NCBI RefSeq assembly: GCF_900100335.1
Contig: NZ_FNFE01000005.1
Coordinates: 1 to 64,000 of the forward strand
Direction of reading: 5' to 3'
Source of the DNA: Natronorubrum texcoconense
Lineage (GTDB): Archaea > Halobacteriota > Halobacteria > Halobacteriales > Natrialbaceae
DNA: 64,000 bases
In this document: in pieces, positions 5,742 through 64,000 of the stretch
Layout: the number at the start of each line of letters is the position of its first letter
Position numbering within the stretch: the stretch's first letter is position 1
Notes under the pieces: model-generated
Database searches by the model: none
Seen by the model: only the letters and a program-made list of their open reading frames with translations
What the model was told of the DNA's origin: nothing
Position numbers and translations under genes: made by a program

Positions 5742-5765
5742 ACACGACGGTATCGGAGCACACCG

Positions 5766-5880: not shown

Positions 5881-7017
5881 ATGATAACAACGATCGAGCT
5901 CTCGGAGTCGCATCAGGAACACCGAGAGTCAGTTCGCCAGTTCTGTGAAACGGAGGTCGAACCGCACGTCGACGAGTACGAATCGTCCGGCACGTTTCCG
6001 ACGGACGTCGTCGAACGGGTCGCCGAAGCCGGATTCCACGGGGTCCAGTACGGGACGGAGTACGACGGCCTCGGCCTCGATTACCGGTCCTACGCCATCA
6101 CTATCGAGGAACTCTCCCGAAGCTGGAAGCTCCTCGCCGGAACCGCCTCGGTCGCCGGCAGTCTCGTCGGCTATCCGATCCACGAGTTCGGCGCGGAGTG
6201 GCAACGCGAGGAGTGGCTCGGAAACATCTGCTCGGGCGCGTGGATCCCCGCGCTCTCGTTGACCGAACCGAACGCCGGCAGCGACGCGGGCTCGCTCGAG
6301 ACGACGGCGACTCGAGACGGCGACGAGTACGTCCTCGACGGCGAGAAGGTGTGGACGACGAACGGGAGTATTGCGGATTTCCTGGTCGTCGGTGCGCGGA
6401 CGGACGAGGGCGTCAGCCTGATCGGCGTCCCGAACCCGGCGGATCGAGACGGCCTCGAGTTCGTTCGCGACATCCCGTGTATGGAAGGCGATGCCTCGAT
6501 CGAGACCGAACTTCGGTTCGACGACGTTCGGGTTCCGGCGGAGAACGTCATCGGAGAACCGGGGAAGGGCCTCCGATACGTCCTCGAGGGGCTGGACATC
6601 GGGCGAATCGGGACGGCCGCTCAGGGGGTCGGCGTGGCACAGGGCTCGTTCGAGGATAGCGTGGCGTTCGCCGACGAGCGCGAGCAGTTCGGACAGCCGA
6701 TCCGGGAGTTCCAGGGCATCTCGTTCAAGCTCGCGGACATGGCGATCGAGATCGAAGCGTCGCGGCTGCTCACCCTCTCCGCCGCGGCGAAGCGGGATCG
6801 GGGAGAACGCGTAACCTCTGAGGCGGCGATGGCGAAGACGAAGGCGACGGACGTCGCGATGGACGTGACGACCGAAGCCGTCCAGGTTCACGGCTCCCGC
6901 GGCTACTCGAAGGACTACCCGCTCGAGCGGCGAATGCGCGTCGCGAAGGGGATGCAGATCTACGAGGGAACGAACGAAATCAATCGGATCGTGGTCGCGA
7001 ACGGGCTTTACGACTGA
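5881..7017 (+). CDS. Acyl-CoA dehydrogenase
   Basis: A 378-residue FAD flavoenzyme that puts a double bond into an acyl-CoA. It has the FAD/substrate segment LTEPNAGSD, the WTTNGS strand, and the catalytic base glutamate in QIYEGTNEINR near the C-terminus. The reading frame stays open upstream to 5725, but those residues are cysteine- and arginine-rich and unlike the family, so I start at the ATG at 5881. It is divergent from the acyl-CoA ligase, and a cyclase-family gene follows 41 bases downstream. Substrate class cannot be assigned; short or branched chains are usual for enzymes of this length. Confidence 0.88.
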   Translation: MITTIELSESHQEHRESVRQFCETEVEPHVDEYESSGTFPTDVVERVAEAGFHGVQYGTEYDGLGLDYRSYAITIEELSRSWKLLAGTASVAGSLVGYPIHEFGAEWQREEWLGNICSGAWIPALSLTEPNAGSDAGSLETTATRDGDEYVLDGEKVWTTNGSIADFLVVGARTDEGVSLIGVPNPADRDGLEFVRDIPCMEGDASIETELRFDDVRVPAENVIGEPGKGLRYVLEGLDIGRIGTAAQGVGVAQGSFEDSVAFADEREQFGQPIREFQGISFKLADMAIEIEASRLLTLSAAAKRDRGERVTSEAAMAKTKATDVAMDVTTEAVQVHGSRGYSKDYPLERRMRVAKGMQIYEGTNEINRIVVANGLYD

Positions 7018-7058
7018 CTGTGAGAACAGTTATTAGCTGACCGGTCACACGTGTTATC

Positions 7059-29669: not shown

Positions 29670-30635
29670 CTACTCGAGTAACCCCTTCATGTACCCGACG
29701 GCGAACAGTTTGCCCGTGATGTGGTAGCCGGGAATCGAATTGTCCTCGCCGGCCATCGTCGGCACGTGGTCGGGACGTATGGGGCCGTCGAAGCCGACCT
29801 CGCGGTAGGCGTCGATCGCGACCTGCATGTCCGTCGGTCCCTCGTCGTGCCAGGTCTCGACGAAGCCGTCCGCGTCGCCGTCGACGTCACGGAAGTGGAC
29901 GAACTGAATCCGATCGCCGAAGTGGCGAATCGTCTCTGGGATATCGACGCCCATCGCCGCGAAGTTACCCTGACAGAAGGTGATTCCGTTCGCCGGCGAG
30001 TCGACGATCTCGAGGACGCGGTCGTAGGCCTCGACGCTAGTGATTATCCGGGGCATGCCGCGAACCTTCTCGCGAGGCGGATCGTCGGGGTGGAGGCCGA
30101 GTTTCACGCCTGCCTCTTCGGCGACCGGCACGACGCGCTCGAGAAAGTACTCGAGGCTCTCCCACAGGTCCGCTTCGGCGGTGTTTCTGGCCGCCGGCGG
30201 CGTCGGTCCGCGTCGCATCTGCTCGTTATCGTAGGCCGTCGTCAGCGAGCCGCCGCGGGCCGGCGTCGTCGTCGACGTCCGCGCCCAGCGGAGGCCGGCC
30301 ATCCAGTCGTAGCAGACGACCTCGACGCCGAGTTCGCCGATATTCCTGAGAAACCGACAGAATTCGTCGATCTCCTCGTCGCGGCCGTCCAGCCCGAGTC
30401 TGGTCTCGTCCGTGATCGGTACGCTCCCTTCGAAGACGGCGGGTTCGATGCCCCGGTCGCGATACCGGTTGGTCAGGTGCAAGAGGTCGTCGTAGTTCGA
30501 GGGACAGCCCCCGTCACCGATCTCGAGCGAGTGATAGACGGCGGTCTCGACGCCGACCTGTGTAGCGAGTTCCCACCGCTCGTCGGGCTCCGGAGGAAGG
30601 ACTAGTGCAACGTCCATGTTCGGTATGTCGAGCAT
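29670..30635 (-). CDS. uxuA: Mannonate dehydratase
   Basis: A 321-residue UxuA-family enzyme that dehydrates D-mannonate to 2-keto-3-deoxy-D-gluconate. LGLHPDDPPREKVRGMPRI, the metal-site segment FCQGNFAAMG, and QFVHFRDVDGDADGFVETWHDEGPTDM are family signatures, as is the GKLFAVGYMKGLLE end. It is shorter than E. coli UxuA (394 residues) but close to compact bacterial forms. The start at 30635 gives MLDIPNMDVALVLP; an ATG at 30617 is also possible. Together with glucuronate isomerase at 61.9 kb and the UxuB-like SDR at 43.9 kb it would complete the glucuronate-to-KDG route. Confidence 0.87.
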   Translation of the reverse strand: MLDIPNMDVALVLPPEPDERWELATQVGVETAVYHSLEIGDGGCPSNYDDLLHLTNRYRDRGIEPAVFEGSVPITDETRLGLDGRDEEIDEFCRFLRNIGELGVEVVCYDWMAGLRWARTSTTTPARGGSLTTAYDNEQMRRGPTPPAARNTAEADLWESLEYFLERVVPVAEEAGVKLGLHPDDPPREKVRGMPRIITSVEAYDRVLEIVDSPANGITFCQGNFAAMGVDIPETIRHFGDRIQFVHFRDVDGDADGFVETWHDEGPTDMQVAIDAYREVGFDGPIRPDHVPTMAGEDNSIPGYHITGKLFAVGYMKGLLE

Positions 30636-31283
30636 TGTTCCAAGGCCTCTTATGTGTTTTCGGAGGCTTTCTTCTCGCCTTCGAATCGCGGTAGCCACTG
30701 GTCGAAAATTTCTCGTCGCTCGCCGGGTTCCGGTATCGTCTCCAGTTTGGCCGTCGGCTGGCGTTCACTACTACGGATGTATCGCTCCCTTCCCCGGATC
30801 GTGTTCCCCATTCGCACGAAGCTCTCGTCGGATCTGTCTCCACACTATCTATGATTGTTCGAACACAATTCTGAGTACTCGGTATCCGCGACTCGGTCGG
30901 ATCGTACTCGTTCTCTATACGCCTGATTTGGACTCGGGTGCCACTACAGGCCTTCTCCCGTCTATTCGGCTCGTGACGATCGCGACTACTCACACCGATA
31001 TCGTTCACGACGTTTATTGTAAACTGCAACCTCCATACGGATTGTTTCTTCGTATTCCACTACTCGTAACATCGATAATCGATCTGTTAAAATCGAATAT
31101 GGTTGTGAATATCAATCCTGGAGACGATGCCTGGTCGGCGCCAATATTCGTGTAACTGATGTGTCGGAGGCGATTTCACCTCTGATTATATACGCTTGTT
31201 ATCTGTGGAACTGATCGCTATCCCGGGAGACCACTGTGAGGGTGTAGCGAACGAGTGCGCCGTACGACGCCTCGCTCGAGACG
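30636..31283. other. 648-base spacer upstream of uxuA with one small open frame
   Basis: Apart from a possible 53-codon gene near its left end, this space shows no gene. The right half is AT-rich, with TATA-like runs. No palindrome of the TTACAG family is present. Confidence 0.45.
30650..30811 (-). CDS. Possible 53-residue protein ahead of uxuA
   Basis: An open frame starting MGNTIRGRERYIRSSE and ending EGEKKASENT stops 14 bases before the uxuA start, a spacing typical of co-transcribed genes. Its third-position GC and the phrase REIFDQWLPRFEGE look more protein-like than random frames around it, but it is richer in arginine than most haloarchaeal proteins. An in-frame stop closes it upstream, so it could also be the tail of a decayed larger gene. 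No family is recognised. Confidence 0.3.
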   Translation of the reverse strand: MGNTIRGRERYIRSSERQPTAKLETIPEPGERREIFDQWLPRFEGEKKASENT

Positions 31284-32487: not shown

Positions 32488-33822
32488 TCAGGCGAACTCG
32501 GGCAGGTACTCGGCGTTGGCCTTGAGCAAGTCGTCGACCATCCCGTCGATCTCCTCGAGCGTACAGACCGCACCCGCCAACGGATCGAGTTTGACGGCCC
32601 GGCGAAGCGCGTCCTCGTCGCGCTCGAGGGCGGCGTCGACGGCGAGCGACTGAACGTTTACGTTCGTCCGATTGAGCGCCGCGAGCTGCGGCGGGAGGTC
32701 GCCGACGGAGCAGGGGTGGACGCCCGTTGCGTCGACGTGACACGGCACCTCGACGATCGCGTCGTCGGGAAGATTCGTGATGAGTCGGCCGTCGTTCGGG
32801 ACGTTGAGGTTCATCCGTCGACTCTCGCCCGTCTCGAGGGAGTGGACGATCCGCGCGGCGTACTCGCCCGAGCGCTCGAGGCTGGTATCTACCTCCCCGG
32901 GATCGAACTGGTCGGCGTGATCGATCTCACTCCACTGGTCGAAGTACTCGCCCGTCGGCAGCCAGCAGACGGGGGAGTACTCGAACGCTTCGCGGTCGGG
33001 ATCGTAGGCGCTGGCGTCGACGAGCCGGTCGATCTCGGCTTGCTCGTGGCGGAAGTAGGGCAGGTACTCGCTCAGGTGGTGACTCGACTCCGTGATGAAC
33101 CGCCCGAAGTGATCCATCGTCTCGAAGCGAACGACGTCCCGCGCGTAGATTTCGGGGTCGGTCATCGCTTCCTCGAGGTCGGGATACAGGTCGCGACCCT
33201 CGTGCCCTATGTCGAGGAACCACGCCATGTGGTTGATGCCGGCGACCCAGTACTCGAGTTCTTCGAACGGGACGTCGACGTAGCTCGCGATGGCGTGGGC
33301 CGTCCCGACGATGCTGTGACAGATGCCGTAGACGTCGATCTCGGTCTCGGCCTCGAGTGCCCAGCAGACCATCGCCATCGGGTTGGTGTGCTGCAGCAGC
33401 GGCGCGTCGGGACACAGTTCCTCCATATCGCGGGCGATGTCGAGCATCGTCGGAATCGTTCGCGTGGCCCGGAAGACGCCTCCCGGACCGAGCGTGTCGC
33501 CGACGGACTGCTCGACGCCGTATCGTCGGGGAATCTCGATCTCGTTGCGAACCGGCTCGGTGCCGCCGACGTGAATCATCGTGATCACGTAGTCCGCTCC
33601 CTCGAGCGCTTCCCGTCGATCGGTCGTCGCCTCGACCGTCGCGGGGAGGTCGTTCCCGTCGACCAGCGTCCGCGTCGCAGTCTCGATTCGCTCGAGGCGG
33701 TCGGCGTCGATATCCATCAGACTAAGCGTCGAGTCCTGGAGCGTCGGAAACGAGAGGACGTCGCGGACGAGCGTCCGCGTGAACGTGTGGCTCCCGGCGC
33801 CGATAAACGCAATTTTCACCAT
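32488..33822 (-). CDS. GH4 alpha-galactosidase/alpha-glucosidase-like hydrolase
   Basis: A 444-residue glycoside hydrolase family 4 enzyme, which cleaves by an NAD+- and Mn2+-dependent redox-elimination route. The NAD site is IAFIGAGSHTFTR at residues 4-16. The metal ligands are C168 and H198, in the motifs GICHS and GINHMAW. The CHS triplet is the form seen in alpha-glucosidases and alpha-galactosidases of the family, in contrast to the CHEV form in the second GH4 at 51,239. It has no signal peptide, so it acts on imported oligosaccharides. It sits between GH127 and a Gfo/Idh/MocA gene. Confidence 0.87.
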   Translation of the reverse strand: MVKIAFIGAGSHTFTRTLVRDVLSFPTLQDSTLSLMDIDADRLERIETATRTLVDGNDLPATVEATTDRREALEGADYVITMIHVGGTEPVRNEIEIPRRYGVEQSVGDTLGPGGVFRATRTIPTMLDIARDMEELCPDAPLLQHTNPMAMVCWALEAETEIDVYGICHSIVGTAHAIASYVDVPFEELEYWVAGINHMAWFLDIGHEGRDLYPDLEEAMTDPEIYARDVVRFETMDHFGRFITESSHHLSEYLPYFRHEQAEIDRLVDASAYDPDREAFEYSPVCWLPTGEYFDQWSEIDHADQFDPGEVDTSLERSGEYAARIVHSLETGESRRMNLNVPNDGRLITNLPDDAIVEVPCHVDATGVHPCSVGDLPPQLAALNRTNVNVQSLAVDAALERDEDALRRAVKLDPLAGAVCTLEEIDGMVDDLLKANAEYLPEFA

Positions 33823-44837: not shown

Positions 44838-46346
44838 ATGACTGACGCACGTATAGCGGTTCACACAGAGGCGAGTATCGACCGGATCGCACCCGAAGTA
44901 CACGGCCACTTCGCCGAACACCTCGGTCGCTGTATCTACGGCGGGATCTGGCACGCCGACAGCGCCGCCGAGAGCGGTTTCCGCGAGGACACCGTCTCGC
45001 TGCTCGAGGATCTCGACCTCCCGGTCCTCCGCTGGCCGGGCGGCTGTTTCGCCGACGACTACCACTGGGAGGACGGCGTCGGACCGCGAGACGAACGGCC
45101 CCGCCGTCGCAACCTCTTCTGGGCGCAGGGGCCGGAGGAGACGCCCGAGGAGTCGAACGCCTTCGGCTCCGACGAGTTTCTCGAGCTCTGTGAGCGCATC
45201 GGCACCGAAGCCTACCTCGCGGCGAACGTCGGCTCCGGCGATCCACAGGAGGCCGCAAACTGGGTCGAGTACTGCAACTACGACGGCGACACCGAGCTGG
45301 CGAACCGACGCCGGGAGAACGGTCACGAGGAGCCCTACGGCGTCACATACTGGGGTCTCGGAAACGAGAACTGGGGCTGTGGCGGTCGGATGTCCCCCGA
45401 ACAGTACGCACGCGAGTACCGACGGTTCGCGACTTACGTCGGTACCATGGACGGCCTGTTGCTCGACCACGACCTCGAACTCATCGCCTGCGGCTACGAG
45501 GGCCACGAGTGGAATCGTCGATTCCTCGACGAGGTTTCCGGCGCCCCGTGGGGCGAACCGTTCCCGCTCGACCACCTCACGCTCCACCACTACTACGGCC
45601 GATCGATGACCGTCGCCGAGGCCGACGAGGATCAGTACGACCAGTTCCTCGTCGAGGCCCTCGAGATGGACCGCCACATCGAGCGAATCGCCGCGGCCAT
45701 CGACGCGGTGGCGACGACCCGCGACATCGGCGTCATCGTCGACGAGTGGGGCTCCTGGCATCCCGAGGCGACGCCCGAGACCGGCTTAGAGCAGCCGGGA
45801 ACCGTCCTCGACGGGCTCTCGGCGGCGGCCGTCCTCGACGTCTTCAACGACAACAGCGACGTCGTGACGATGACGAACATCGCACAGACCGTCAACGTCC
45901 TCCAGTGTCTCGTCGAGACCGACGAAGACGACGCCTGGGCGCGTCCGACCTACCGCGTCTTCGACCTCTACGCGCCCCACAAGGGTAACGAGGCCGTCCG
46001 GACCTCGGTCTCCGCGCCGACGCGCGAACTCGTCGACGACGACGAGAACCGCGAACTGCCCCTCGTCGGCGCCTCCGCCTCCGTCGGCGACGACGAAACC
46101 TACGTCACCGTCACCAACCTCGACTGCCGCGAGGACCACGCCGTCGAGATCGCCCTCGAGGGCGCAGACCTTCGCGAGGGCGACGTGCGGGCCGAGATCC
46201 TGTTCGCCGAGCAGGAACCCGACCTCGAGGTCACCGCCGCCAACGCCGAGGCGTTCACCGCCGACGACCTGTCGGTCTCGGTCGACGGCAAATCGATCGT
46301 CGCGGAACTGCCGCCGTCGACGGTCGCCGCGATCACCGTCGAGTAA
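44838..46346 (+). CDS. GH51 alpha-L-arabinofuranosidase
   Basis: A 502-residue cytoplasmic GH51 enzyme that removes alpha-linked arabinofuranose from arabinoxylan or arabinan oligosaccharides. It begins with the family segment HGHFAEHLGRCIYGGIW and LRWPGGCFADDYHWEDGVG. The acid/base is E177 in GLGNENWG and the nucleophile E303 in IVDEWGSWH; a beta-sandwich C-terminal domain follows. It has no signal peptide. Codons ending in C are used even more than in neighbours. It complements the GH127 enzyme, which takes the beta-linked form of the same sugar. Confidence 0.92.
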   Translation: MTDARIAVHTEASIDRIAPEVHGHFAEHLGRCIYGGIWHADSAAESGFREDTVSLLEDLDLPVLRWPGGCFADDYHWEDGVGPRDERPRRRNLFWAQGPEETPEESNAFGSDEFLELCERIGTEAYLAANVGSGDPQEAANWVEYCNYDGDTELANRRRENGHEEPYGVTYWGLGNENWGCGGRMSPEQYAREYRRFATYVGTMDGLLLDHDLELIACGYEGHEWNRRFLDEVSGAPWGEPFPLDHLTLHHYYGRSMTVAEADEDQYDQFLVEALEMDRHIERIAAAIDAVATTRDIGVIVDEWGSWHPEATPETGLEQPGTVLDGLSAAAVLDVFNDNSDVVTMTNIAQTVNVLQCLVETDEDDAWARPTYRVFDLYAPHKGNEAVRTSVSAPTRELVDDDENRELPLVGASASVGDDETYVTVTNLDCREDHAVEIALEGADLREGDVRAEILFAEQEPDLEVTAANAEAFTADDLSVSVDGKSIVAELPPSTVAAITVE

Positions 46347-50406: not shown

Positions 50407-50703
50407 GTATCGCTCGGGTCGAGGCGCTCATATCAGAACAGCGCACGCGTCTTCACGAACTCCCCTGCTGAACGCACGGATCGACGCGACGATTCCGAAG
50501 TCAGCCGTCGGAACCGCGACAGCCGCATCCCTACACTGGCGTTCGTCGCCTCGAACCGATACCGTCCGGCACATCCCGATACAATCGCTGTGACTGCTCC
50601 CGGGCGTCGCACCTGTCGGCCCATTATACGGGTGGCTGGGCCGACTGGTCGAGCTCGTTCATTGGATCAAAATGCTTATTGGTTGGCGAGTGAATGGGAA
50701 CCC

Positions 50704-51162
50704 ATGAACCGCGCGCTCGTTATGGTCGAATCCACGGAGTTTTCCCGACAGTTAGTTCGGGAAGCCGGCGAACTGGCGGCCGGCGTCGACGCCGATCTCA
50801 AACTGCTCGCGACGATGGAGCAAGACGAGTACGAACACGATCTCGAGACGATGTCGACGATCGCCGACGTCGAAGGAACGGCGTACTCGCCGGCAGACGT
50901 CAAAGAGAGCGGGAGACAGTTCGCTCGAGATATTGCTCGGACGGAACTGGAGGACGTAGACGTCGAGTACGACCCGCTCTGTATCGTCGTCGACGATGGG
51001 AAGAAGGCACAGCGGATCGTCGCGCTGGCGGAGGAGCACGACTGCGATCACATCTTTATCGCTGGACAGAAGCGCTCCCCGACGGGGAAGGCGATCTTCG
51101 GCGACACGGCACAACGCGTGATTCTCAACTTCAACGGAGCCGTTACTGTCGTCACGGACTGA
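50704..51162 (+). CDS. Universal stress protein (UspA family)
   Basis: A 152-residue Usp-fold protein with MNRALVMVESTEFSRQLVREAG at the start and the nucleotide-binding motif GQKRSPTGKAIFGDTAQ near the end. I begin at ATG 50704, because the residues upstream in frame are not Usp-like. It is divergent from the IclR gene and precedes the second GH4 gene by 76 bases. It is related to the Usp at 13,036 but clearly different in sequence. Role unknown; nucleotide binding is expected from the motif. Confidence 0.83.
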   Translation: MNRALVMVESTEFSRQLVREAGELAAGVDADLKLLATMEQDEYEHDLETMSTIADVEGTAYSPADVKESGRQFARDIARTELEDVDVEYDPLCIVVDDGKKAQRIVALAEEHDCDHIFIAGQKRSPTGKAIFGDTAQRVILNFNGAVTVVTD

Positions 51163-51238: not shown

Positions 51239-52693
51239 ATGGCTCAACGTATCCAATCGAGCGGCGCGATCGATCCCGACGATATCACGATCGCCTATCT
51301 CGGCGGTGGAAGTCGACAGTGGGCACCGAATCTCATCCAGGACCTCGCACAGTCCGACCTCGACGGTCGGGTTCGGCTCTACGACGAATACTACGAGAGC
51401 GCAGCGCGGAACGCGCGCTTTGGAAACTGGGTGCAAGAACGGGACGGTGCCGTCGCGGACTGGTCGTACGAGGCGACGGATTCCCTCGAAACGGCGCTCG
51501 CGGGCGCGGACGTTGTCATCCTCTCCACGCAGTACGATCCGGCCGAGACGTTCGTCCACGATCTCGACATCCCCGAACGCTACGGCATTTACGGCGCGGT
51601 CGCGGCGACCATCGGCCCCGGTGGCATCTTCCGGGCGATGAGAACGGTGCCGCTTTACCGCACGTTCGCCGCCGCGATCCGCGAGCACTGCCCCGACGCG
51701 TGGGTGTTCAACTACACGAACCCCGTCCACTTCGTAACGCGGGCATTGTACGACGAGTACCCCGAAATCAACGCGCTCGGCCTCTGTCACGAGGTGCTCG
51801 GCACCCGCCACCGCCTCGCGCGCTACGCTCGAGAACAGCTCGACATGGACGCCGAGCGAAGCGATATTTCGGTCAACGTCAAGGGAATCAACCACTTCAC
51901 GTGGGTCGACGAGGCCCGCTGTAAGGGCGTCGACCTCTGGCCAGTGCTCGAGGAGCTTCGAGACGGCCCAGAGGGTCATCAGACGTTCACACCAGAGGAT
52001 CTGGCCGACGACAGCGTCTTCGTCGATCACTGGCAGGTGACCTGGGAGCTGTTCCGCCGATTCGGCGTGCTTCCCGCCGCGGGCGACCGTCATCTCGTCG
52101 AGTACGCGACCTGGTTCATTCAGGGCGGCCAGGAGGGGCTCAATCGCTGGGGCGTCAAGCGCACGGGAAGCGACTACCGAGCCAAACACTGGACGCCCGC
52201 CGAATCGGATCAGACGACCGACGTCGAGGCGTGGATGGCGGGCGACCGCGAGTTCGAACTGAGCGAATCCGACGAAGTCTTCGTCGACATCCTCGCGGGG
52301 CTCGCAGGACAGGCGGAGTACGTCACGAACGTCAACCTCCCTAACACCGGGCAGGTATCGGACCTGCAGGATGGTGCCGTCGTCGAAACGAATGCGCTCG
52401 TCAGCGCCGACGAGGTGAAACCGATGACCGCCGGCGGGTTCCCGCGCCCGGTCCGGAGTCTGCTTCGCGGCCACATCGACACCATCGAGACGGTGATCGA
52501 GGCGTCCGCCGACGGCGATCTCGACGCCGCGTTTCAGGGGTTCCTCATCGATCAGCAGATCCGCACCTTACAAACCGAGGACGCACGAGAGCTGTTCGCG
52601 GAACTGGTCGCCGCACAGGAGTCGTATTTGCAGGATTGGGACCTCGAGGAGGCCGCCGTCCTCGAGGAAGCGTCGGCGTATCCGGCCGAGTGA
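51239..52693 (+). CDS. GH4 hydrolase with CHEV motif, candidate alpha-glucuronidase
   Basis: A 484-residue GH4 enzyme needing NAD+ and Mn2+. The NAD site is IAYLGGGSRQW at residues 18-28, NYTNP is at 158-162, and the metal-binding cysteine and histidine are C183 (GLCHEV) and H219 (GINHFTW). In this family the residues after the cysteine track specificity. CHS goes with alpha-glucosidase/galactosidase. As I recall, CHEV goes with the Thermotoga alpha-glucuronidase. No GH67 or GH115 glucuronidase is visible although glucuronate genes are present, so this enzyme would fill the gap. Lack of a signal peptide means it acts inside the cell. Confidence 0.8.
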   Translation: MAQRIQSSGAIDPDDITIAYLGGGSRQWAPNLIQDLAQSDLDGRVRLYDEYYESAARNARFGNWVQERDGAVADWSYEATDSLETALAGADVVILSTQYDPAETFVHDLDIPERYGIYGAVAATIGPGGIFRAMRTVPLYRTFAAAIREHCPDAWVFNYTNPVHFVTRALYDEYPEINALGLCHEVLGTRHRLARYAREQLDMDAERSDISVNVKGINHFTWVDEARCKGVDLWPVLEELRDGPEGHQTFTPEDLADDSVFVDHWQVTWELFRRFGVLPAAGDRHLVEYATWFIQGGQEGLNRWGVKRTGSDYRAKHWTPAESDQTTDVEAWMAGDREFELSESDEVFVDILAGLAGQAEYVTNVNLPNTGQVSDLQDGAVVETNALVSADEVKPMTAGGFPRPVRSLLRGHIDTIETVIEASADGDLDAAFQGFLIDQQIRTLQTEDARELFAELVAAQESYLQDWDLEEAAVLEEASAYPAE

Positions 52694-52838: not shown

Positions 52839-54899
52839 TCAGACGTGCTCGTCGTCGTCGACCGATTTCGCGTGGCGCGCTCTGATTCGCGGGTTGCTGA
52901 TCCGGTCTAATGCCTGTGCGATGAGGATCAGTCCCATCGAGAGCCCGATGATGAACAGCGTCGGGGCGAGGATGTAGTGGACCTGTCCGATGGAGTAGAG
53001 CGAGTGTGCCTCCTCTGCGTTGTTGAGGACGACACCCCAGTTCTGCGTGCTGACCGGGAGGAAGCCCAGGTAGTACAGGGCGACCGAGGCGAAGATGATG
53101 TTGCGCGCGTGGTTTGCGAGGTTGATGAGGACGTAGGGCCAGATGTTCGGCAGGATATCCTTGAGGATCGTCGAAACTGTGCCGACGCCCATCGCGCGTG
53201 CCGCTTCGACGTACTCCTGGCTTCTCACTTTGAGCACTTCGGAGCGGATCGAGCGCCCGAGTCCACCCCAGGCGGCGACGGAGAGGACGAGCCCGACCAT
53301 CGCCGGATGGCGCGGTTCGATGATCGCCGCGATGACGATGATCAGGGGGAGACCGGGGATCGAGACGACGATGTCACAGAGCGTCATGAGGATCCGATCG
53401 GTGGTCCCGCCGCGGAATCCGGCGGTCGCGCCGACGCTGACGCCGAGCGTGACCGTCGCGAGTGCACCGGCGGTGATCATGATCAGTACGGGCGTCGTCC
53501 CAGTGACCATCAACGAGAGGACGTCCGTTCCGGTGTTCGTGGTTCCAAGCGGGTGAGCGAGGACGCCGTCCAGCGGCGAAATCCACGTTTCGAACGTGGC
53601 TGTCGGGCTGTGGACGAATCGGGGTCCGAAGATACCGAGTAAGAAGAACGAAATCGTGATAGTGACCCCGAGGAACCCGCGCCAGTCGCTCAGCACGATC
53701 TTCGCGGGCGCGTATATCGACCGGTCGAACTTTCGGTACAGCACCTCCTTTCGATTGACGTCGATTTCGGTTTCCTCGCCGAAGAACGCGTGTTTGGTAG
53801 TGCCGCCGTCCGCCCGCGGTTCTTTGGTTTTGTTCGTCAGTCGCTTGACGTAGCGTTTGAACTGCGTCCGGAGCGGAACGCCGGCCGAACTGCCGTACAC
53901 CTGCATGTTGTCTCCGCCGGTTTTCGCCCGCGGGTCGATGCGACTGTACGTGAGGTCGGCGACGAACATCGCGATAACGACCGTGATACAGATGACCGTA
54001 AACCCGCCGACCATGAGCGGGTAGTCGCGGTTCTCGACGCCCTCGAACATGTACCACCCCATCCCGCGATAGGTGAAGATGTCCTCGAGGATAATCGACC
54101 CGCCGATCATGAACCCGATCGTCAGTAGCAGACCCGTGTAGAGCGGGAGCAAGGCGTTTCGCATGACGTATCGGAGTGCGATTCTCGTCGGCGGCAGTCC
54201 GCGGAGACGAGCGACCCGGATGTGATCGGCACCGAGGACGCTGATCGAATTGCCACGCATACTGAGGGACGCGGCCGCGCCCGTCACGATTAACGAGAGG
54301 ATCGGTAACGTAGCGTGATGTAACGCGCCGAGAACGAACTCGGCGTTGAGTCCGATATCTGCGCCACCGGGGTATCGCGCACCGGTCGGGAACCAACCCA
54401 GCTGGTACGCGAAGACGAACGACAGGAGGAGCGCGGCGACGTAGTACGGCGTCGAGCTCTCGATGACGGCGACGGCGGTCATCACTGTGTCGAACTTCGA
54501 GCCCTCGTAGTAGGCCATGATCGCCCCGAGACAGATGCTCGTCACGAACGTGATGATCATCGCGATGGACATGTAGAAAATCGTCCACGGCACCGCCTCG
54601 GCGAGGATCTGGTTGACTGATTGGTTCTGAGACAACGAGTGTCCGAGATCACCCTGCAACATCGCAGTCATGTACTCGATGTACTGGACGTGCATCGGGT
54701 CGTCAGGATGAATGTTTATCGTCAGTTCGACCAGTCGTCGAGCGGCATCCGGATTGTTCGGATTGTCCGCCAGCATCTGCGCGTACATCGCCTCGAACGG
54801 GTTCCCGGGCATGAACCGTACGAGCGCGAACGTCAGATGGAACACGACGAGTACTGTTAACACACCCTGGCCGATTCGCTTGATTAGCCAGTTAGACAT
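52839..54899 (-). CDS. Fused DppB-DppC oligopeptide-type ABC permease
   Basis: A 686-residue protein joining two complete permeases. Residues 1-330 are DppB-like (LIKRIGQGVLTVLVVFHLTFAL at the start, docking loop RVARLRGLPPTRIALRYVMRNALLP). A polar linker at about 331-400 follows. The rest is DppC-like (docking loop EAARAMGVGTVSTILKDILPNIWP). They are normally separate genes. Met332, just after DPRAKTGGDN, could be the start of an ancestral DppC, but the frame is continuous. No binding protein or ATPase gene lies beside it. In this neighbourhood the cargo may be xylo-oligosaccharides, which related importers carry in haloarchaea and Thermotoga. Confidence 0.87.
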   Translation of the reverse strand: MSNWLIKRIGQGVLTVLVVFHLTFALVRFMPGNPFEAMYAQMLADNPNNPDAARRLVELTINIHPDDPMHVQYIEYMTAMLQGDLGHSLSQNQSVNQILAEAVPWTIFYMSIAMIITFVTSICLGAIMAYYEGSKFDTVMTAVAVIESSTPYYVAALLLSFVFAYQLGWFPTGARYPGGADIGLNAEFVLGALHHATLPILSLIVTGAAASLSMRGNSISVLGADHIRVARLRGLPPTRIALRYVMRNALLPLYTGLLLTIGFMIGGSIILEDIFTYRGMGWYMFEGVENRDYPLMVGGFTVICITVVIAMFVADLTYSRIDPRAKTGGDNMQVYGSSAGVPLRTQFKRYVKRLTNKTKEPRADGGTTKHAFFGEETEIDVNRKEVLYRKFDRSIYAPAKIVLSDWRGFLGVTITISFFLLGIFGPRFVHSPTATFETWISPLDGVLAHPLGTTNTGTDVLSLMVTGTTPVLIMITAGALATVTLGVSVGATAGFRGGTTDRILMTLCDIVVSIPGLPLIIVIAAIIEPRHPAMVGLVLSVAAWGGLGRSIRSEVLKVRSQEYVEAARAMGVGTVSTILKDILPNIWPYVLINLANHARNIIFASVALYYLGFLPVSTQNWGVVLNNAEEAHSLYSIGQVHYILAPTLFIIGLSMGLILIAQALDRISNPRIRARHAKSVDDDEHV

Positions 54900-55484: not shown

Positions 55485-57806
55485 GTGACACGAGAACAGT
55501 CCACTGCCACGTACCGTGACGAGACGGCATCCGTCTCGGTACGGGTCGAGGATCTCCTCGAGCGAATGACGCTCGAAGAAAAGGCCGCACAGCTCGGTTC
55601 AGTCAACGCCGATCGGTTGCTCGACGACGGAGCGCTCGACACCGAGGCAGTCGAGGAGTGGCTCGAGCACGGAATCGGCCACTTCACCCGCCTCGGCGGG
55701 GAAGGCGGACTCTCGCCGACGGACGCCGCGAGGGTCACGAACGAACTGCAGTCGTACCTGCGCGAGGAGACGCGCCTCGGGATTCCCGCAATCCCCCACG
55801 AGGAGTGTCTCAGCGGCTACATGGGACCGGAGGCGACGACGTTCCCGCAGATGCTCGGCATGGCGAGTAGCTGGAACGCCGATCTTCTGCAGACCGTCAC
55901 CGGAACGATTCGCGGCGAACTCGAGGGAATCGGCACGGTTCACGCGTTGTCGCCAGTACTCGACGTCGCTCGCGACCTTCGGTGGGGCCGCGTCGAGGAG
56001 ACCTTCGGCGAGGATCCGTATCTGGTGTCGGAGATGGCACGCGCATACGTGAACGGATTACAGGGAGAGGGCCGTGCAGACGGCATCTCGGCGACGCTGA
56101 AACACTTCGTCGGTCACGGGTCGACCGACGGCGGGAAGAACCGTTCGTCGCTCAACGTCGGCATGCGGGAGCTCCGCGAAACGCACCTGTTCCCCTACGA
56201 GGCCGTTATCAGCGAGGCGAACGCCGAATCGGTGATGAACGCCTACCACGATATCGACGGCGTTCCGTGTGTCACCAACGAGTGGCTGCTGACCGATCTG
56301 CTGCGCGGCGAGTTCGGCTTCGACGGTACCGTGGTCTCTGACTACTACAGCGTTCGGCACTTAGAGACCGAGCACGGGACCATCAACACGAAACAGGAGG
56401 GTGCTGTCGCCTCGATCGAGGCCGGTCTCGACGTGGAACTGCCGTACACGGAGTACTTCGGCGAACACCTCGTCAACGCCGTCGAGGACGGCGACCTCGC
56501 CGAGGAAACCCTCGACGAAGCGGTCCGTCGCGTCCTCCGAGAGAAGTTCCGGAAAGGCGTCTTCGACGCGGGCGAGATCGACGAGGATGCGGCGGCAGAC
56601 GCGTTCCACACCGACGAGGCCCGCGAGATCACCCGAGAAGCGGCTCGCCAGTCCATGACGCTGCTCAAGAACGAGGGCGACCTCCTCCCCCTCGACGTCG
56701 ACTCCGTCGCGGTCGTGGGGCCGAAAGCCGACGACCCGAAGGAGCTGATGGGCGACTACGCCTACGCGGCCCACTACCCCGAGGAGGAGTACGAAGCCGA
56801 CGCGATCACGCCGCTCGAGGCGCTCGAGTGGCGCGACGACGTCGATGTCTCCTACGAGCAGGGGTGTACCATCTCCGGCCCCTCGACCGACGGCTTCGAT
56901 GCGGCGACCGAGGTTGCCGAAGACGCAGACGTTGCGCTGGCGTTCGTCGGCGCTCGCTCCGCGGTCGACTTCTCCGACGTCGACGCCGAGAAAGCGGAAA
57001 AACCGAGCGTCCCGACCAGCGGCGAAGGCTGTGACATGACCCATCTCAGGCTCCCTGGCGTCCAGGAAGATCTCGTCGCGGAACTGCTCGAGACGGGAAC
57101 GCCGGTCGTGGTCGTGCTCGTCAGCGGCAAGCCTCACGCGATCGAGTGGATGGCCGAGGACGTCCCCGCGATCCTCTACGCGTGGCTGCCTGGCGACGAG
57201 GGCGGCCCGGCCATCGTCGAAACGCTGTTCGGCGAGAACAACCCTGCCGGAAAGCTCCCCGTCTCCCTGCCCAAGTCCGTCGGGCAACTCCCGGTCTACT
57301 ACAACCGGAAGGCCAACACGGCGAACAAGGATTACGTCTACACCGACAGCGAGCCGGTGTACCCGTTCGGGCACGGCCTGAGCTACGCCGAATTCGAGTA
57401 CGGCGATATTTCGCTGTCGTCCGACAGCGCCACGCCGCTCGAGTCGGTCACCGCGAGCGTGACGGTCACGAATACGGGCGAGCGCGCCGGCGACGAAGTC
57501 GTTCAGCTGTACACGCACGCTGTGAATCCGAGCCAGGCCCGTCCGGTGCAGGAACTGCTCGGCTTCGAACGCGTTGCCCTCGAGGCTGGCGAGTCCAAGC
57601 GCGTTACCTTCGAGTTCTCTGCGACGCAACTGGCGTTCCACGATCTCGATATGAACCTCACCGTCGAGGAAGGGCCGTACGAGATCCGCGTCGGAAGCTC
57701 CGCGACCGATATCGAGGCAACCGAGGACCTCGAGATCACGGACACGAAGACGGTGCCGAAGACTGCCCGCACGTACTACACGGACTCGGCAGTCGACGCA
57801 GAGTAA
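55485..57806 (+). CDS. GH3 beta-glucosidase/beta-xylosidase
   Basis: A 773-residue GH3 enzyme starting at a GTG. The TIM-barrel domain has LKHFVGHG (K206, H207) and the nucleophile D286 in GTVVSDYYSV. The alpha/beta sandwich domain follows, and a fibronectin-III-like domain ends the protein (VVQLYTHAVNPSQARPVQELLGFERV). With no signal peptide it is probably cytoplasmic and takes xylobiose or other imported oligosaccharides. It stands beside the secreted xylanases, which suggests beta-xylosidase activity, but beta-glucosidase cannot be excluded. Confidence 0.9.
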   Translation: MTREQSTATYRDETASVSVRVEDLLERMTLEEKAAQLGSVNADRLLDDGALDTEAVEEWLEHGIGHFTRLGGEGGLSPTDAARVTNELQSYLREETRLGIPAIPHEECLSGYMGPEATTFPQMLGMASSWNADLLQTVTGTIRGELEGIGTVHALSPVLDVARDLRWGRVEETFGEDPYLVSEMARAYVNGLQGEGRADGISATLKHFVGHGSTDGGKNRSSLNVGMRELRETHLFPYEAVISEANAESVMNAYHDIDGVPCVTNEWLLTDLLRGEFGFDGTVVSDYYSVRHLETEHGTINTKQEGAVASIEAGLDVELPYTEYFGEHLVNAVEDGDLAEETLDEAVRRVLREKFRKGVFDAGEIDEDAAADAFHTDEAREITREAARQSMTLLKNEGDLLPLDVDSVAVVGPKADDPKELMGDYAYAAHYPEEEYEADAITPLEALEWRDDVDVSYEQGCTISGPSTDGFDAATEVAEDADVALAFVGARSAVDFSDVDAEKAEKPSVPTSGEGCDMTHLRLPGVQEDLVAELLETGTPVVVVLVSGKPHAIEWMAEDVPAILYAWLPGDEGGPAIVETLFGENNPAGKLPVSLPKSVGQLPVYYNRKANTANKDYVYTDSEPVYPFGHGLSYAEFEYGDISLSSDSATPLESVTASVTVTNTGERAGDEVVQLYTHAVNPSQARPVQELLGFERVALEAGESKRVTFEFSATQLAFHDLDMNLTVEEGPYEIRVGSSATDIEATEDLEITDTKTVPKTARTYYTDSAVDAE

Positions 57807-58090: not shown

Positions 58091-59293
58091 ATGACAAACG
58101 ACGAGACACACGACGCGAACGCATCGACTGATGAACTAATCGACCGACGCGACTACATGAAAGCGGCGGGAGCAACCGCAGCGGCCGGTCTCGGAATCGG
58201 GGCAATGTCGACTTCGGCTGCAGCCCAGGAAACGCTCACGGAGAACCAACAGACCACCTACGACGGCTCGTTCGTGTCGTTCTGGACCGACACCGACGAC
58301 ACGGTCTCGATGACGCTCGAGGACGGCGGCAGTTACAGCGTCGACTGGCAAAACACCGGCAACTTCGTCGTCGGGATGGGCTGGGATCCCGGTGCGAGCC
58401 GGACGATCGAGTACGATGCCACGCACAACCCATCGGAAAACTCCTATCTCTGCGTCTACGGGTGGACGACGGATCCGCTCGTGGAGTACTACATCATCGA
58501 AAACTACGGCACCTATCGGCCTGGCGACGAAGAACACGGTACCCACCAGAGCGACGGCGGCACGTACGACATCGCCACGTCCGAACGCATCGAAGAGCCG
58601 TCCATCATCGGCACGGCGACGTTCACCCAGTACTGGAGCATCCGCCAGAACTCACGAACCAGCGGCACCATCAACGTCGGCAATCACTTCGACGCCTGGG
58701 AGAACCACGGCCTCGAGTTGGGCGACCACGACTACCAGATTATGGCCGTCGAAGCCTGGGACTACCAGGGTCCCAACAGTGCCTCCGTCTCGTTCGGCGA
58801 AGCCAGCGGTGGTGGTGACCCTGGCGGCGACCCCGGTGACGACGACGGCAACGGCGGCTCCTCCGGAGACCTCGCCGACGGCACCTATGGCATCCAGAAC
58901 GTCAACAGCGGCAAGGGCCTCGACGTCTCCGAAGAGTCGACAGACGACGGCGCGAACATCCAGCAGTACGAGTACTGGGGCGGCACCAACCAGCAGTGGA
59001 ACGTCGAGGACACTGGTGGCGGTGCGTATCGTATCGAGAACGTCAACAGCGGCAACGTCCTCGATGTCGGCGGCGAGTCGGACGGCGCAAACGTCCAGCA
59101 GTACTCGGACCACGGTGGCGACAACCAGCGCTTCTACCTGCACGACCAGGGCAGCGGCCAGTACCACATCCAGCCGGTTCACACCGAGAAGGCACTCGAA
59201 GTCGAAAGCTCCTCGACCGATGACGGTGCCAACGTCCAGCAGTACGAGTGGCACGGCGACGATAACCAGCTCTGGACGTTCGATAACGTCTAA
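58091..59293 (+). CDS. Tat-secreted GH11 endo-1,4-beta-xylanase with ricin-type (CBM13) lectin domain
   Basis: A 400-residue extracellular xylanase. A Tat signal DRRDYMKAAG lies at residues 18-27 and cleavage is expected around 45. Residues 46-236 form the GH11 jelly roll with nucleophile E132 in PLVEYYIIENYGTYRP and acid/base E221 in YQIMAVEAW. A Gly/Asp linker at 238-258 leads to a beta-trefoil lectin of about 140 residues whose three repeats each contain QxxxxxGxxNQxW-like ends (NQQW, NQRF, NQLW). It cuts the xylan backbone outside the cell. GH11 is unusual in archaea. Confidence 0.92.
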   Translation: MTNDETHDANASTDELIDRRDYMKAAGATAAAGLGIGAMSTSAAAQETLTENQQTTYDGSFVSFWTDTDDTVSMTLEDGGSYSVDWQNTGNFVVGMGWDPGASRTIEYDATHNPSENSYLCVYGWTTDPLVEYYIIENYGTYRPGDEEHGTHQSDGGTYDIATSERIEEPSIIGTATFTQYWSIRQNSRTSGTINVGNHFDAWENHGLELGDHDYQIMAVEAWDYQGPNSASVSFGEASGGGDPGGDPGDDDGNGGSSGDLADGTYGIQNVNSGKGLDVSEESTDDGANIQQYEYWGGTNQQWNVEDTGGGAYRIENVNSGNVLDVGGESDGANVQQYSDHGGDNQRFYLHDQGSGQYHIQPVHTEKALEVESSSTDDGANVQQYEWHGDDNQLWTFDNV

Positions 59294-59468: not shown

Positions 59469-61766
59469 GTGGACATGACAAATCCAAACGATCGGGAGGA
59501 GCGAGAGCAATCGTCGTCGGACGGATCGATCCGTCGTCGTCCGTTCTTGGGAACGGTTGGCGCATTTGGCCTCGGAGCGGGATTGGCAGGCCGCGTCGGC
59601 GCGGACGAGGACGGGTGGCCGTCACCGGACGATCACTACTACGCGGAGCTAGTCGGCGACCTTTCACAACTCGACATCCCACCCGGCGAGTTCGTGTGCG
59701 CGGAGAACGAGGCTGACACCTTCGCGACTTACGAACTCGCGGGGGAACACGAGGATCTCGCCGCGCGTGAATCGCTCGATGTTAGCGACGACGATGTCAC
59801 CTTCGTCGAAGCGACCCGCATTTCGGTTGGCGAACTCGAGGACGGGTCGCTTGATCCGTGGGGTGTCACCGTCCAGGCGACGGTCGAGGACCAGGCCGTT
59901 TCGGCCGGCGATACGTTACTCGGCGTGGCGTACGTCCGCAATCCAGGGACGGGTGGCTCGACGGCAGATGTCACGTACAAATCGACCGAGGCGGACAACG
60001 AAGCAGAGAACTACGTCCTGAACGGCGGCATCGCGGCCGGCCAGGAGTGGGAGCGCTACTTCTTCCCGATCGACTTCCAGACGGCCGGCGACGCCGGCGA
60101 GTGGTGGACTGAGTTCTGGGTCGGTATCGAAGGCCAGACCGTCGATATCGGCGGTCTCGCCTTGCTCAACTTCGCACAGGACGTCGACGCCAACGAACTC
60201 CCCTCCTGGGACGACGAGATCGACCTCGAGGACGGCTGGGAAGAAGAAGCGGACGCGCGCATTCAGGAACACCGGACCGCGAATCTCACGGTTTCGGTCA
60301 CCGATGCAGATGGGGACGCGGTCGACGCCGCTGTCGACCTCGAGATGCAAGACCACGAGTTCGCGTTCGGAACGGCCGTCGACGCGAACCGACTTCAGAC
60401 GGATGACGCCGACGGCGAGCAGTACCGAGGGCTGATTCCTGAACTGTTCAACACGACCGTCCTCGAGAACCACCACAAGTGGCGCTTCTTCGAGGACAAT
60501 CAGGAACTGGCCGACGACGCAACCGACTGGATCCTCGAGCAGGACCTCGATATTCGCGGTCACGCCTGTCTGTGGTCGAGCCGAGACTCGAACTCCATCC
60601 CCGAAGACGTCGAGGATGCGATGGACGAAGGCGACGCCGACTACGTCGCAGAGCGCTCGCTCGAGCATATCGAGACGGTCATCGAACACTACGGCGACGA
60701 CATGGAACACTGGGACGTGGTCAACGAGGCAGTCCACGAAACCGAGATGACGGAGGTAATCGACGGTGAAGACGTTGACCCCGTCGAAGCGCCGATACTC
60801 GAGGAGTGGTACGAGACGGCGACGGAGGTCGCTCCCGAGAGCGTCGCACTCGACGTCAACGACTACAACGTGCTCTCCGGTCCCTACGAGGGGACTCGCG
60901 ACGACTACGAGCGCCAGATCGAGTTCCTCGCAGGGGCAGCGGGGGTCGACCTCGGCGGGATCGGCCTGCAGAGTCACTTCAGCCGCGGCGAGCAACTCAC
61001 ACCCGGTGAGATCATGGACGTGCTCGACCGCTACGCCGAGGCCGGCGATGGGGCGCCCCTTCGGATCACCGAGTTCGACATGGCCGATCCGAACTGGCTC
61101 GAGGCGGACAAAGCCGACTTCTTCCACTGGTTCCTCAAGACGATCTACAGTCACCCCGAGATGGAGGATTTCCTCATGTGGGGCTTCTGGGACGACGAAC
61201 ACTGGCAGGACGATGCACCGTTGTTCGACGAAGAGTGGAATCCAAAGCCGACCTACGATGTCTACACCGACCTCGTCTTCGAGGAGTGGTGGACCGACGA
61301 AACGGGCGAGACGAACGCCGACGGTGCGTTCAATGCGACGGCGTTCCTCGGTGAGTACGACCTGACCATTGACGCCGGCGACGGCGAATTCTCGACGTCG
61401 CTCTCGCTCGAGGAACCAACTGACGAGTCGGTCGAAATCACACTCGTCGAGATTGACGTTCGGGGCTCGGGACGCGGCAACGGCCGCGTGCCAGTACACG
61501 TTCACGGCGGAGACGCGTTCGATCCTGCCGATGTCGACTACGACACGGTTCGCTTCGGTGACCCCGACGTCGTTGCAGGCGGCGGCGGGAGCGATGTCGT
61601 TCATCTCCCCGGTGGACCAGGCGACGGGACCGGACGCGGCAACGGCCGTGGCAATTGCTCGCAGATGGTCCATTTCGACGGCGCTGACAGCGAACTCGAG
61701 GACGTTGCGATGATAACCGGCCGAACGGCCGACGGCGACATCATCGTCGGCTTCGACCGGCTGTAA
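59469..61766 (+). CDS. Tat-secreted GH10 endo-1,4-beta-xylanase
   Basis: A 765-residue secreted xylanase (763 if ATG 59475 is the start). A Tat motif RRRPFLG lies at residues 22-28. Residues ~100-240 form a CBM4/9-like binding domain, and ~270-610 the GH10 barrel, with acid/base E420 in DVVNEAVHE and nucleophile E535 in LRITEFDMAD. The tail, from about residue 660, holds VPVHVHGGDAFDPADVDYDTVRFG and TADGDIIVGFDRL, a pattern common at the C-terminus of surface proteins, interrupted by a Gly/Arg-rich stretch with a lone cysteine. It follows GH11 by 175 bases with its own promoter and complements it on substituted xylan. Confidence 0.92.
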   Translation: MDMTNPNDREEREQSSSDGSIRRRPFLGTVGAFGLGAGLAGRVGADEDGWPSPDDHYYAELVGDLSQLDIPPGEFVCAENEADTFATYELAGEHEDLAARESLDVSDDDVTFVEATRISVGELEDGSLDPWGVTVQATVEDQAVSAGDTLLGVAYVRNPGTGGSTADVTYKSTEADNEAENYVLNGGIAAGQEWERYFFPIDFQTAGDAGEWWTEFWVGIEGQTVDIGGLALLNFAQDVDANELPSWDDEIDLEDGWEEEADARIQEHRTANLTVSVTDADGDAVDAAVDLEMQDHEFAFGTAVDANRLQTDDADGEQYRGLIPELFNTTVLENHHKWRFFEDNQELADDATDWILEQDLDIRGHACLWSSRDSNSIPEDVEDAMDEGDADYVAERSLEHIETVIEHYGDDMEHWDVVNEAVHETEMTEVIDGEDVDPVEAPILEEWYETATEVAPESVALDVNDYNVLSGPYEGTRDDYERQIEFLAGAAGVDLGGIGLQSHFSRGEQLTPGEIMDVLDRYAEAGDGAPLRITEFDMADPNWLEADKADFFHWFLKTIYSHPEMEDFLMWGFWDDEHWQDDAPLFDEEWNPKPTYDVYTDLVFEEWWTDETGETNADGAFNATAFLGEYDLTIDAGDGEFSTSLSLEEPTDESVEITLVEIDVRGSGRGNGRVPVHVHGGDAFDPADVDYDTVRFGDPDVVAGGGGSDVVHLPGGPGDGTGRGNGRGNCSQMVHFDGADSELEDVAMITGRTADGDIIVGFDRL

Positions 61767-61897: not shown

Positions 61898-63262
61898 CTA
61901 GAACCCGTACAGTTCGTTCGGTCGTTCGTAGGCGAGTCGCTCGACGAGGTCACGGGCCACGTCCATCGGTATCTGTCCGCGATCGACTTGTTTTCCGACG
62001 ACGTTCGACAAGGAGCGTCTGAACATCTCGAAACGCGAGCCGTAGGAGAGGAGTTTTCGGGAGTCGCTGACCATCCCGGCGTGCTGGGAGAGCAGGTCGA
62101 CCGTGCCGACGTACTCGAGTTGGTGTTCCATACCGAACGGGCTGTCGTTGAACCACCAGGCGGGGCCGATGGTAACGTTGGGGAAGACGCGAGCCATCGT
62201 CGCGATCGTCGGATAGTGGGTCGGGTCGATCGTGTACAGGACCATCTCGGTCTCGCCGTCGAACCGGTTGACGAAGTGCTCGAGCGAGTCGGCGAGTTCG
62301 ACGTCCCCCGTAGAGATGTCGCCGCCGGCCGCGGGACCCAGCCGGTCGAACAGGTCGTCTCGATAGTTACGAACGGGACCGATGTGGAGTTGCGTCACCC
62401 ACCCCTTCTCGGCGTTCAACTCGCCCACGAACTCGAGGAGGAACGCCTGGAAATCCCCGATCTCGCGCTCGGAGAGCGAACCGCCCGCGAGTCCCGTGCG
62501 GAAGACGTCCCGCGCTCGCCGCTCGCTGACGGGACGGGAGGTGGGCTGTTCGATACCCAGGTCGCTGGCCCGGCAGCCGCGCTCGTCGAAGTAGTCGTGG
62601 GTCGCGGCGAGCGCCTCGCAGAAGCCGTCGAACTCGTCGGCGCTGATCCCGGTTGCGGACTCGAGTTCGTCGACGAACGCGATCCACTCGGGTCGGTCGA
62701 TTTTGACCGCGCGGTCCGCCCGCCACGTCGGCACGATATCGACGCCGGACACCTCCTCGGCGGCGCGCTCGTGGTACTCGAGGTCGTCCGTCGGGTCGTC
62801 GGTGCTGCCGACGATTTCGACGTTCATCGCCTCGAGGAGCTGCTGGGGCCGCATATCGTCGTCAGCGAGTTGGGTCCTCGTTTCCGTCCAGATCTCGTCG
62901 GCCGTGTCCGCCGAAATCGATTTCTCGATCCCGAACCGGCGCTGTAGATCGAGGTGGACCCACTCGTAGGTCGGGTTGCCGGCGAACCGCGGGAACACTT
63001 CCGCGAGCGCGTTCCACTTCTCGCGATTGGGCGCGTCGCCGGTGATCAGTTCCTCGTCGACGCCGCAGTTGCGCATCAGCGCCCAGACGTAGTGATCCGT
63101 GGCGGCCTCGACCTCCCAGATGTCGTTCCAGCCGTCGTTTTCGACGATCTCGGCGACGTCCACGTGGGTGTGGGCGTCGACGATCGGAAGGTCCGCGATT
63201 TCGTCGTACAGTTCTCGCGCGGCGTCCGTCTCGAGCAGATAGTCCTCACCGAGGAAACTCAT
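61898..63262 (-). CDS. uxaC: Glucuronate isomerase
   Basis: A 454-residue UxaC protein that converts D-glucuronate to D-fructuronate (and galacturonate to tagaturonate). The N-terminal metal site is PIVDAHTHVD, the substrate region is YEWVHLDLQRRFGIE, and VGSTDDPTDDLEYH is a clear family signature. RGQIPMDVARDLVERLAYERPNELYGF ends the protein. It is convergent with GH10 and divergent from the LLM-class gene. The downstream enzymes UxuB-like SDR and UxuA are encoded 18 and 31 kb away, so the pathway is scattered over the locus. Confidence 0.92.
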   Translation of the reverse strand: MSFLGEDYLLETDAARELYDEIADLPIVDAHTHVDVAEIVENDGWNDIWEVEAATDHYVWALMRNCGVDEELITGDAPNREKWNALAEVFPRFAGNPTYEWVHLDLQRRFGIEKSISADTADEIWTETRTQLADDDMRPQQLLEAMNVEIVGSTDDPTDDLEYHERAAEEVSGVDIVPTWRADRAVKIDRPEWIAFVDELESATGISADEFDGFCEALAATHDYFDERGCRASDLGIEQPTSRPVSERRARDVFRTGLAGGSLSEREIGDFQAFLLEFVGELNAEKGWVTQLHIGPVRNYRDDLFDRLGPAAGGDISTGDVELADSLEHFVNRFDGETEMVLYTIDPTHYPTIATMARVFPNVTIGPAWWFNDSPFGMEHQLEYVGTVDLLSQHAGMVSDSRKLLSYGSRFEMFRRSLSNVVGKQVDRGQIPMDVARDLVERLAYERPNELYGF

Positions 63263-63420: not shown

Positions 63421-64000
63421 ATGAATGGCTCCGATTCGAACGACCTGACCTTCGGCTGTCAGGTCGTCGCGTACGGCGACGTCAACGGAACGATCGAACA
63501 GGCGAAACGCGCCGAGGATGCGGGGTTCGACGTTCTCACGCTTCCCGACCACCTGTTTCACCCGACCGGGTCCGAGGAGTTCCTCGTCGAACCGCCGTGG
63601 GAGGCGTTTACCGTCCTCGGCGCGATCGCACAGCACACCGAGCGAGCGACCCTGATGCCGGGCGTCACCGACTCGGTGCGACGGCATCCGACGGAGCTCG
63701 CACACGCCGTCGCGACGCTCGATCGGATGACCAACGGACGTGCGGGCCTCGGGATCGGCGCGGGTGAGGCGTTCAACTTCGTACCGATCGGAGATATCGA
63801 CTGGGACGACCCGTTCACGCGGTTCGTCGAGGCGGTGAAGGTCGTCGACGGCCTCTGGACGTCCACGCCGGACGAGTGCTTCTCGTTCGACGGCGAGTTC
63901 TTCCAGCTCGAGGACGCACACATGGGCCTCAAGCCGGTCCAGAAGCCACGGCCGCCGCTGTGGGTCGGCGGCTACGGTCCCAGCATGCGCGGCTTTGCGG
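63421..64000 (+). CDS. LLM-class F420-type oxidoreductase, N-terminal part
   Basis: The first 193 codons of a luciferase-like monooxygenase-fold protein; the rest is beyond the right edge. It opens LTFGCQVVAYGDVNGTIEQAKRAEDAGFDVLTLPDH and carries LATLDRMTNGRAGLGIGAGEAFN and GLKPVQKPRPPLWVGGYGP, typical of F420-dependent members in archaea. Haloarchaea make F420, so that cofactor is more likely than FMN. It is divergent from uxaC. Its substrate is unknown; a sugar or alcohol dehydrogenase role is possible. Confidence 0.85.
   Translation, partial: MNGSDSNDLTFGCQVVAYGDVNGTIEQAKRAEDAGFDVLTLPDHLFHPTGSEEFLVEPPWEAFTVLGAIAQHTERATLMPGVTDSVRRHPTELAHAVATLDRMTNGRAGLGIGAGEAFNFVPIGDIDWDDPFTRFVEAVKVVDGLWTSTPDECFSFDGEFFQLEDAHMGLKPVQKPRPPLWVGGYGPSMRGFA

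Follow-up and report, generated by a model that had tools for sequence, protein, structure and literature searches.

A GH4 glycosidase encoded in a haloarchaeal xylan locus is probably a second enzyme for removing sugar acids from xylan, and not a missing one, because its close relatives lie in xylan gene clusters beside GH67. The protein belongs, with near certainty, to GH4 and to the LplD-type lineage of that family. Every characterized protein with the CHEV motif that is known to us is a galacturonidase. The fuller proposal that we favor, and to which we give about an even chance, is that an LplD-derived, NAD+/Mn2+-dependent alpha-uronosidase has been recruited to glucuronoxylan use, where it acts beside GH67 on (4-O-methyl)glucuronosyl xylo-oligosaccharides. 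GH4 motifs are used in annotation to name specificity, and CHEV spans two haloarchaeal clades with opposite neighborhoods, pectin in one and xylan in the other. Should the xylan clade (clade A below) prove to cleave glucuronides, naming by motif gives it the wrong specificity, and CHEV alone is no mark of an alpha-galacturonidase. The window, meaning the whole 64-kb stretch of DNA that was analyzed, is C6:1-64000 of genome contig C6, and its relevant features are given in Table 1.

Table 1. Genes of the window that bear on the GH4 enzyme, with positions in the window
Feature	Position	Strand	Basis or remark
GH4 alpha-uronosidase (putative), LplD/CHEV lineage, haloarchaeal clade A	51239..52693	+	sequence, Pfam, AlphaFold2, fold search
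Universal stress protein	50590..51162	+	directly upstream of GH4; adjoins orthologue in several relatives
Fused DppB-DppC-type ABC permease, candidate oligosaccharide importer	52839..54899	-	
GH3, beta-xylosidase/arabinosidase-like	55485..57806	+	
GH11 xylanase with ricin-type lectin domain, Tat-like N terminus	58091..59293	+	
GH10 xylanase, Tat-like N terminus	59469..61766	+	
Glucuronate (uronate) isomerase UxaC	61898..63262	-	NCBIfam 522 bits, cut-off 387
UxuA-type mannonate dehydratase	29670..30698	-	
Second GH4, MelA-type alpha-galactosidase (CHS), contrast protein	32488..33822	-	NCBIfam 563 bits, cut-off 486
GH51 alpha-L-arabinofuranosidase, wider hemicellulose context	44838..46346	+	

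Family, lineage, and motif of the GH4 protein

The open reading frame is intact, begins with ATG, and encodes 484 residues; its GC3 of 0.81 and acidic product reflect the codon and acid bias of haloarchaea. The protein matches Pfam Glyco_hydro_4 with 142 bits and Glyco_hydro_4C with 132 bits (cut-offs 23 and 24), and carries the residues expected of GH4: the GGGS NAD motif at 22-25, N158, C183, H184, and H219. Residues C183-H184-E185-V186 make up CHEV, and D283-R284-H285 are also present. The catalytic positions that we examined are intact across the GH4 set, with single deviant residues in two relatives. On our best reading, GH4 membership predicts an enzyme that depends on NAD+ and Mn2+.

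Three approaches place the protein with LplD. Bacillus subtilis LplD is its best solved relative by phmmer (PDB 3fef, deposited under alpha-galacturonidase; 316 bits, next 101), the AlphaFold2 model (pLDDT 92) retrieves 3fef at rank 1 in a fold search (E 5.5e-43, TM 0.84/0.93), and the tree groups the protein with LplD-type bacteria as against the other GH4 branches. The two proteins share the whole-chain GH4 fold (39% identity), CHEV, the invariant Cys/His/Asn/His, and GDRH. They differ at position 123, where LplD has an invariant Asp and our protein has Ala, in the changes from Gln119 to Gly, Met163 to Val, and Cys166 to Val, and in neighborhood, which is pectin for LplD and xylan here. That Asp, within a V(G/A)DTxGxxG segment, forms part of a definition of the LplD type that is our own and unpublished; in this one respect the protein departs from the type.

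The first-pass annotation had noted that the two GH4 proteins of the window differ after the metal cysteine, CHS in one and CHEV in the other, and the sequence bears this out. It had also taken CHEV as the mark of the Thermotoga alpha-glucuronidase, which does not hold: TM0752 (1vjt/6kcx/7brf) and T. neapolitana 3u95 read CHGV, and CHEV is the unique motif of GH4 alpha-galacturonidases, described as strictly specific, according to the title of Thompson et al. 2013, which PMC4650693 and PMC6547498 cite. TM0752 scores just 50 bits against our protein, and its entries appear at rank 42 and lower in the fold search. This enzyme, Agu4B, shares with our protein the GH4 fold and redox chemistry, and would share a uronide substrate too if the best reading holds; it differs in its CHGV, in an identity of about 18%, in its place on a far, AglA-like branch, and in being non-xylanolytic (PMC8618192). 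Neither CHGV nor closest kinship to TM0752, the features of the Thermotoga (Agu4B) type, is found in the protein.

In a GH4 phylogeny, the check that the annotation had proposed, the MelA-type alpha-galactosidases form a separate clade, the protein groups with the LplD type, and TM0752 lies on its far branch. The MelA-type protein of the window, also GH4, is 31% identical to the CHEV protein, which reaches 241 bits in the NCBIfam alpha-galactosidase model, below the cut-off of 486.

CHEV clades and their gene neighborhoods

Across 292 haloarchaeal genomes, the CHEV GH4 proteins form three clades. Clade A, the orthologues, was found in 23 genomes at 68-91% identity to the GH4 protein; clade B reaches 59-60% and was found in 3, and clade C, the paralogues, reaches 46-53% and was found in 28. 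MelA-type haloarchaeal proteins are set apart at about 30%. In a tree built by a quick method and rooted at the midpoint, SH-aLRT support is 100% for clade A and for clade A+B, and the haloarchaeal CHEV set is separate from LplD and the other bacterial CHEV proteins. CHEV is kept in all three clades (and, among 72 bacterial-type relatives, E185 in 71 and V186 in 70). Its presence in our protein is thus no accident, but it cannot tell clade A from clade C, which neighborhoods can.

Our conclusions on neighborhoods rest on tblastn counts and genome searches. In raw counts that ignore kinship, GH67 is present in 21 of 23 clade A genomes versus 8 of 269 others (Fisher p 2e-23), and lies within 25 kb of 17 of 23 clade A genes versus 0 of 31 clade C genes (p 2e-9). 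Over the same distance, with kinship again ignored, UxaA or UxaE accompanies 0/23 clade A and 8/31 clade C genes, and PL11 accompanies 0/23 and 7/31, respectively. By tblastn, UxaC, UxuA, GH67, or GH10/11 occur at 21 of 22 clade A loci versus 4 of 22 clade C loci, and PL11, PL2, GH78, GH105, GH28, UxaA, or UxaE at none of the 22 clade A loci and at 15 of the 22 for clade C. The pairing of clade A with GH67 recurs in many genera, which belong to several families. Within each of the genera g1, g41, g43, g44, and g47, the sampled genomes tend to have both or neither. A 90.5%-identical gene lies on a Halosolutus gelatinilyticus plasmid in the same order of neighbors, and the annotated H. gelatinilyticus and Halorussus vallis have the same xylanase/UxuA/UxaC context around the orthologue. 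The xylan association of clade A is strong, and the GH4 gene itself has the linkage to xylan and glucuronate genes that we looked for in an alpha-glucuronidase.

Clade C resembles the GH4 protein in identity, CHEV, and shared ancestry, but differs in keeping Asp123 and in lying with pectin and galacturonate genes: PL11, PL2, GH78, a GH88/105-type hydrolase, and UxaE are its neighbors, along with GH105, GH28, and UxaA at some loci. GH28 is frequent among clade C genomes, GH78 is absent from most genomes with the orthologue only, and GH115, which most clade A genomes lack, is found in those of the clade C type. UxaA (PF04295) was rejected as a genome-level separator because it is weak, with 9 of 23 orthologue genomes carrying it, and only adjacency discriminates; PF04295 also covers galactarate dehydratases.

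These neighborhoods bear on whether the enzyme could be an ordinary LplD-like alpha-galacturonidase, acting on pectic oligogalacturonides or galacturonides and placed by chance in a plant-cell-wall island. CHEV, the closeness of LplD among solved structures, and the ability of UxaC to isomerize galacturonate too (PMC6353982) all fit such an enzyme. We nevertheless judge it rather unlikely: the tested pectin/galacturonate genes occur at 0/22 orthologue loci, pectin loci are already occupied by the separate clade C, the otherwise invariant D123 is lost, and single-family searches found GH28, PL11, GH78, UxaA, and UxaE absent from the organism's own genome.

As a separate observation, the tagaturonate epimerase UxaE was seen in a single haloarchaeal genus, in 3 of 292 genomes (G050, at 5530-7038 of locus L035; G089; G268), and in G050 and G089 its neighbors are a GH4 of clade C, UxaC, and GH78. 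UxaE beside UxaC may allow galacturonate to enter the UxuA route in these archaea.

GH67 past the window edge and the uronate route

The first-pass annotation had proposed the GH4 enzyme as the missing alpha-glucuronidase, on the grounds that no GH67 or GH115 was visible and that glucuronate isomerase and mannonate dehydratase were present. The latter two genes are indeed in the window, neither GH67 nor GH115 is, and GH115 is absent from the whole genome. However, the whole-genome search located a GH67 gene with all three GH67 Pfam domains at C6:69499-70485, some 5 kb beyond the edge of the window; more xylanases and another UxuA-type gene lie in between. The absence of GH67 is therefore an edge effect, the enzyme is not missing from this genome, and a fixed window edge can evidently produce an apparent gap of this kind. 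That GH4 serves as the organism's only alpha-glucuronidase, replacing GH67 and GH115, accordingly has next to no probability despite the presence of UxaC and UxuA, the lack of GH115, and a relative (G276) that has the orthologue with neither GH67 nor GH115; GH67 is intact here and accompanies the orthologue in nearly all genomes, as counted above. What survives of the proposed link from xylan side chains to the uronate path is that the orthologues keep company with GH67 and xylan genes and not with genes for pectin or galacturonate. An enzyme serving the xylan-glucuronate path as an addition to GH67, not a replacement, is the better-supported reading.

The combination of GH67, UxaC, and mannonate dehydratase has already been reported in Halorhabdus utahensis (PMC3102087), with the same pathway and partners as in this genome; GH67 differs from GH4 in family and mechanism, and the accessible part of that report describes no companion GH4. 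Galacturonate and glucuronate share UxaC and then part into UxaB/UxaA and UxuB/UxuA, two branches that UxaE connects (PMC6353982). Since UxaC and genes of the UxuA type occur in this genome but UxaA and UxaE do not, the two isomerase-pathway routes for galacturonate beyond tagaturonate are not visible.

The same absences weigh on a second kind of galacturonidase, one directed at the galacturonate inside xylan, in the tetrasaccharide Xyl-Rha-GalA-Xyl at the reducing end of dicot glucuronoxylan. Such an enzyme would square CHEV ancestry with a place among xylan genes, and the tetrasaccharide is real (PMC4827005), yet it strikes us as improbable: an alpha-rhamnosidase would be needed first, and GH78, the rhamnosidase family searched, is absent from the genome; the searches for UxaA and UxaE found no route for galacturonate; and each xylan chain offers one such residue. 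Viewed by substrate, a galacturonosyl group of either kind, pectic or xylan-borne, is possible though doubtful, and a (methyl)glucuronosyl group has roughly equal chances of being right or wrong.

A fructuronate reductase was not identified at the locus. An LLM-class luciferase-like oxidoreductase adjoins UxaC (63421-64000, +, running on to C6:64500), shows 73-89% conservation across many loci with the orthologue, and occurs near some clade C genes too; it could be a candidate for that activity.

Position 123 and the proposed role

Ala123 is present in 29 of 29 clade A+B proteins, as opposed to Asp in 99 of 99 CHEV proteins from clade C and from bacteria, and in 3 of 3 of the MelA type. By alignment the position corresponds to the Glu of GQETxGPGG in phospho-glucosidases, so that Asp marks the galacto-specific kinds, Glu the 6-phospho-gluco kinds, and neither is found in clade A+B. 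G119, V163, V166, and I416 are fixed along with D123A and are common to clade A and its sister clade B. We found no usable published account of a role for Glu111 of GlvA, which aligns with position 123. From the alignment, we infer that residue 123 belongs to the ring-reading part of the -1 subsite, perhaps reading O4. We hypothesize that D123A relaxes O4 recognition and that, with Ala in place, a 4-O-methyl group could be accommodated. Most glucuronate of wood xylan is methylated in this way (97% in poplar; PMC4827005). More specifically, and tentatively, a clade of haloarchaeal GH4 enzymes that descends from alpha-galacturonidases may have switched to 4-O-methyl-alpha-D-glucuronosyl xylan substrates, with loss of the acid at 123 making room for the methyl group.

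The same five substitutions, being common to clade B outside xylan loci, would also suit an enzyme for some other hemicellulose-derived alpha-glycoside, whether a non-uronide or a uronide such as an alpha-1,3-glucuronide. The tight association with UxaC, UxuA, and GH67 points instead to glucuronate, and we hold this alternative to be unlikely.

In the glucuronoxylan reading that we prefer, secreted GH10/GH11 xylanases would cleave xylan outside the cell, the acidic xylo-oligosaccharides would be imported, and GH67 and GH4 would strip alpha-linked uronosyl residues, by our placement in the cytosol. The sugar cleaved by GH4 would most likely be glucuronate or 4-O-methylglucuronate on xylose or xylo-oligosaccharides, by the GH4 route of transient C3 oxidation, C2 deprotonation, elimination, water addition, and re-reduction, and free glucuronate would then be handled by UxaC and UxuA. 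If this is true, the enzymes known to act on xylan gain a redox-type glycosidase, and D123A is a testable specificity switch. Counting against it, a glucuronidase role for GH4 is not required for xylan use, because GH67 already takes off the same side chain. The characterized CHEV proteins, as galacturonidases, count against it as well. Agu4B is, to our knowledge, the one characterized GH4 alpha-glucuronidase. That Thermotoga maritima enzyme is inactive on xylan fragments (PMC8618192), which also weighs against our reading and means that a xylan-active GH4, if true, would be the first of its kind known.

Several minor observations concern the surroundings of these genes. The clade B GH4, with A123, has a GH4 of clade C as a neighbor in three genomes (loci L033, L034, L037), along with a sugar ABC transporter and a gene of the thermosome/Cpn60 type; none of the genes identified near it there concerns xylan or pectin. 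The permease beside the GH4 gene unites DppB and DppC domains in a single 686-aa protein, and comparable fusions of 683-686 aa adjoin the orthologue in L055, L060, and Halosolutus gelatinilyticus. Finally, a GH127 (beta-L-arabinofuranosidase) coding region lies at approximately 33887-35800 (-) within a longer open frame, with its true start downstream of the listed TTG.
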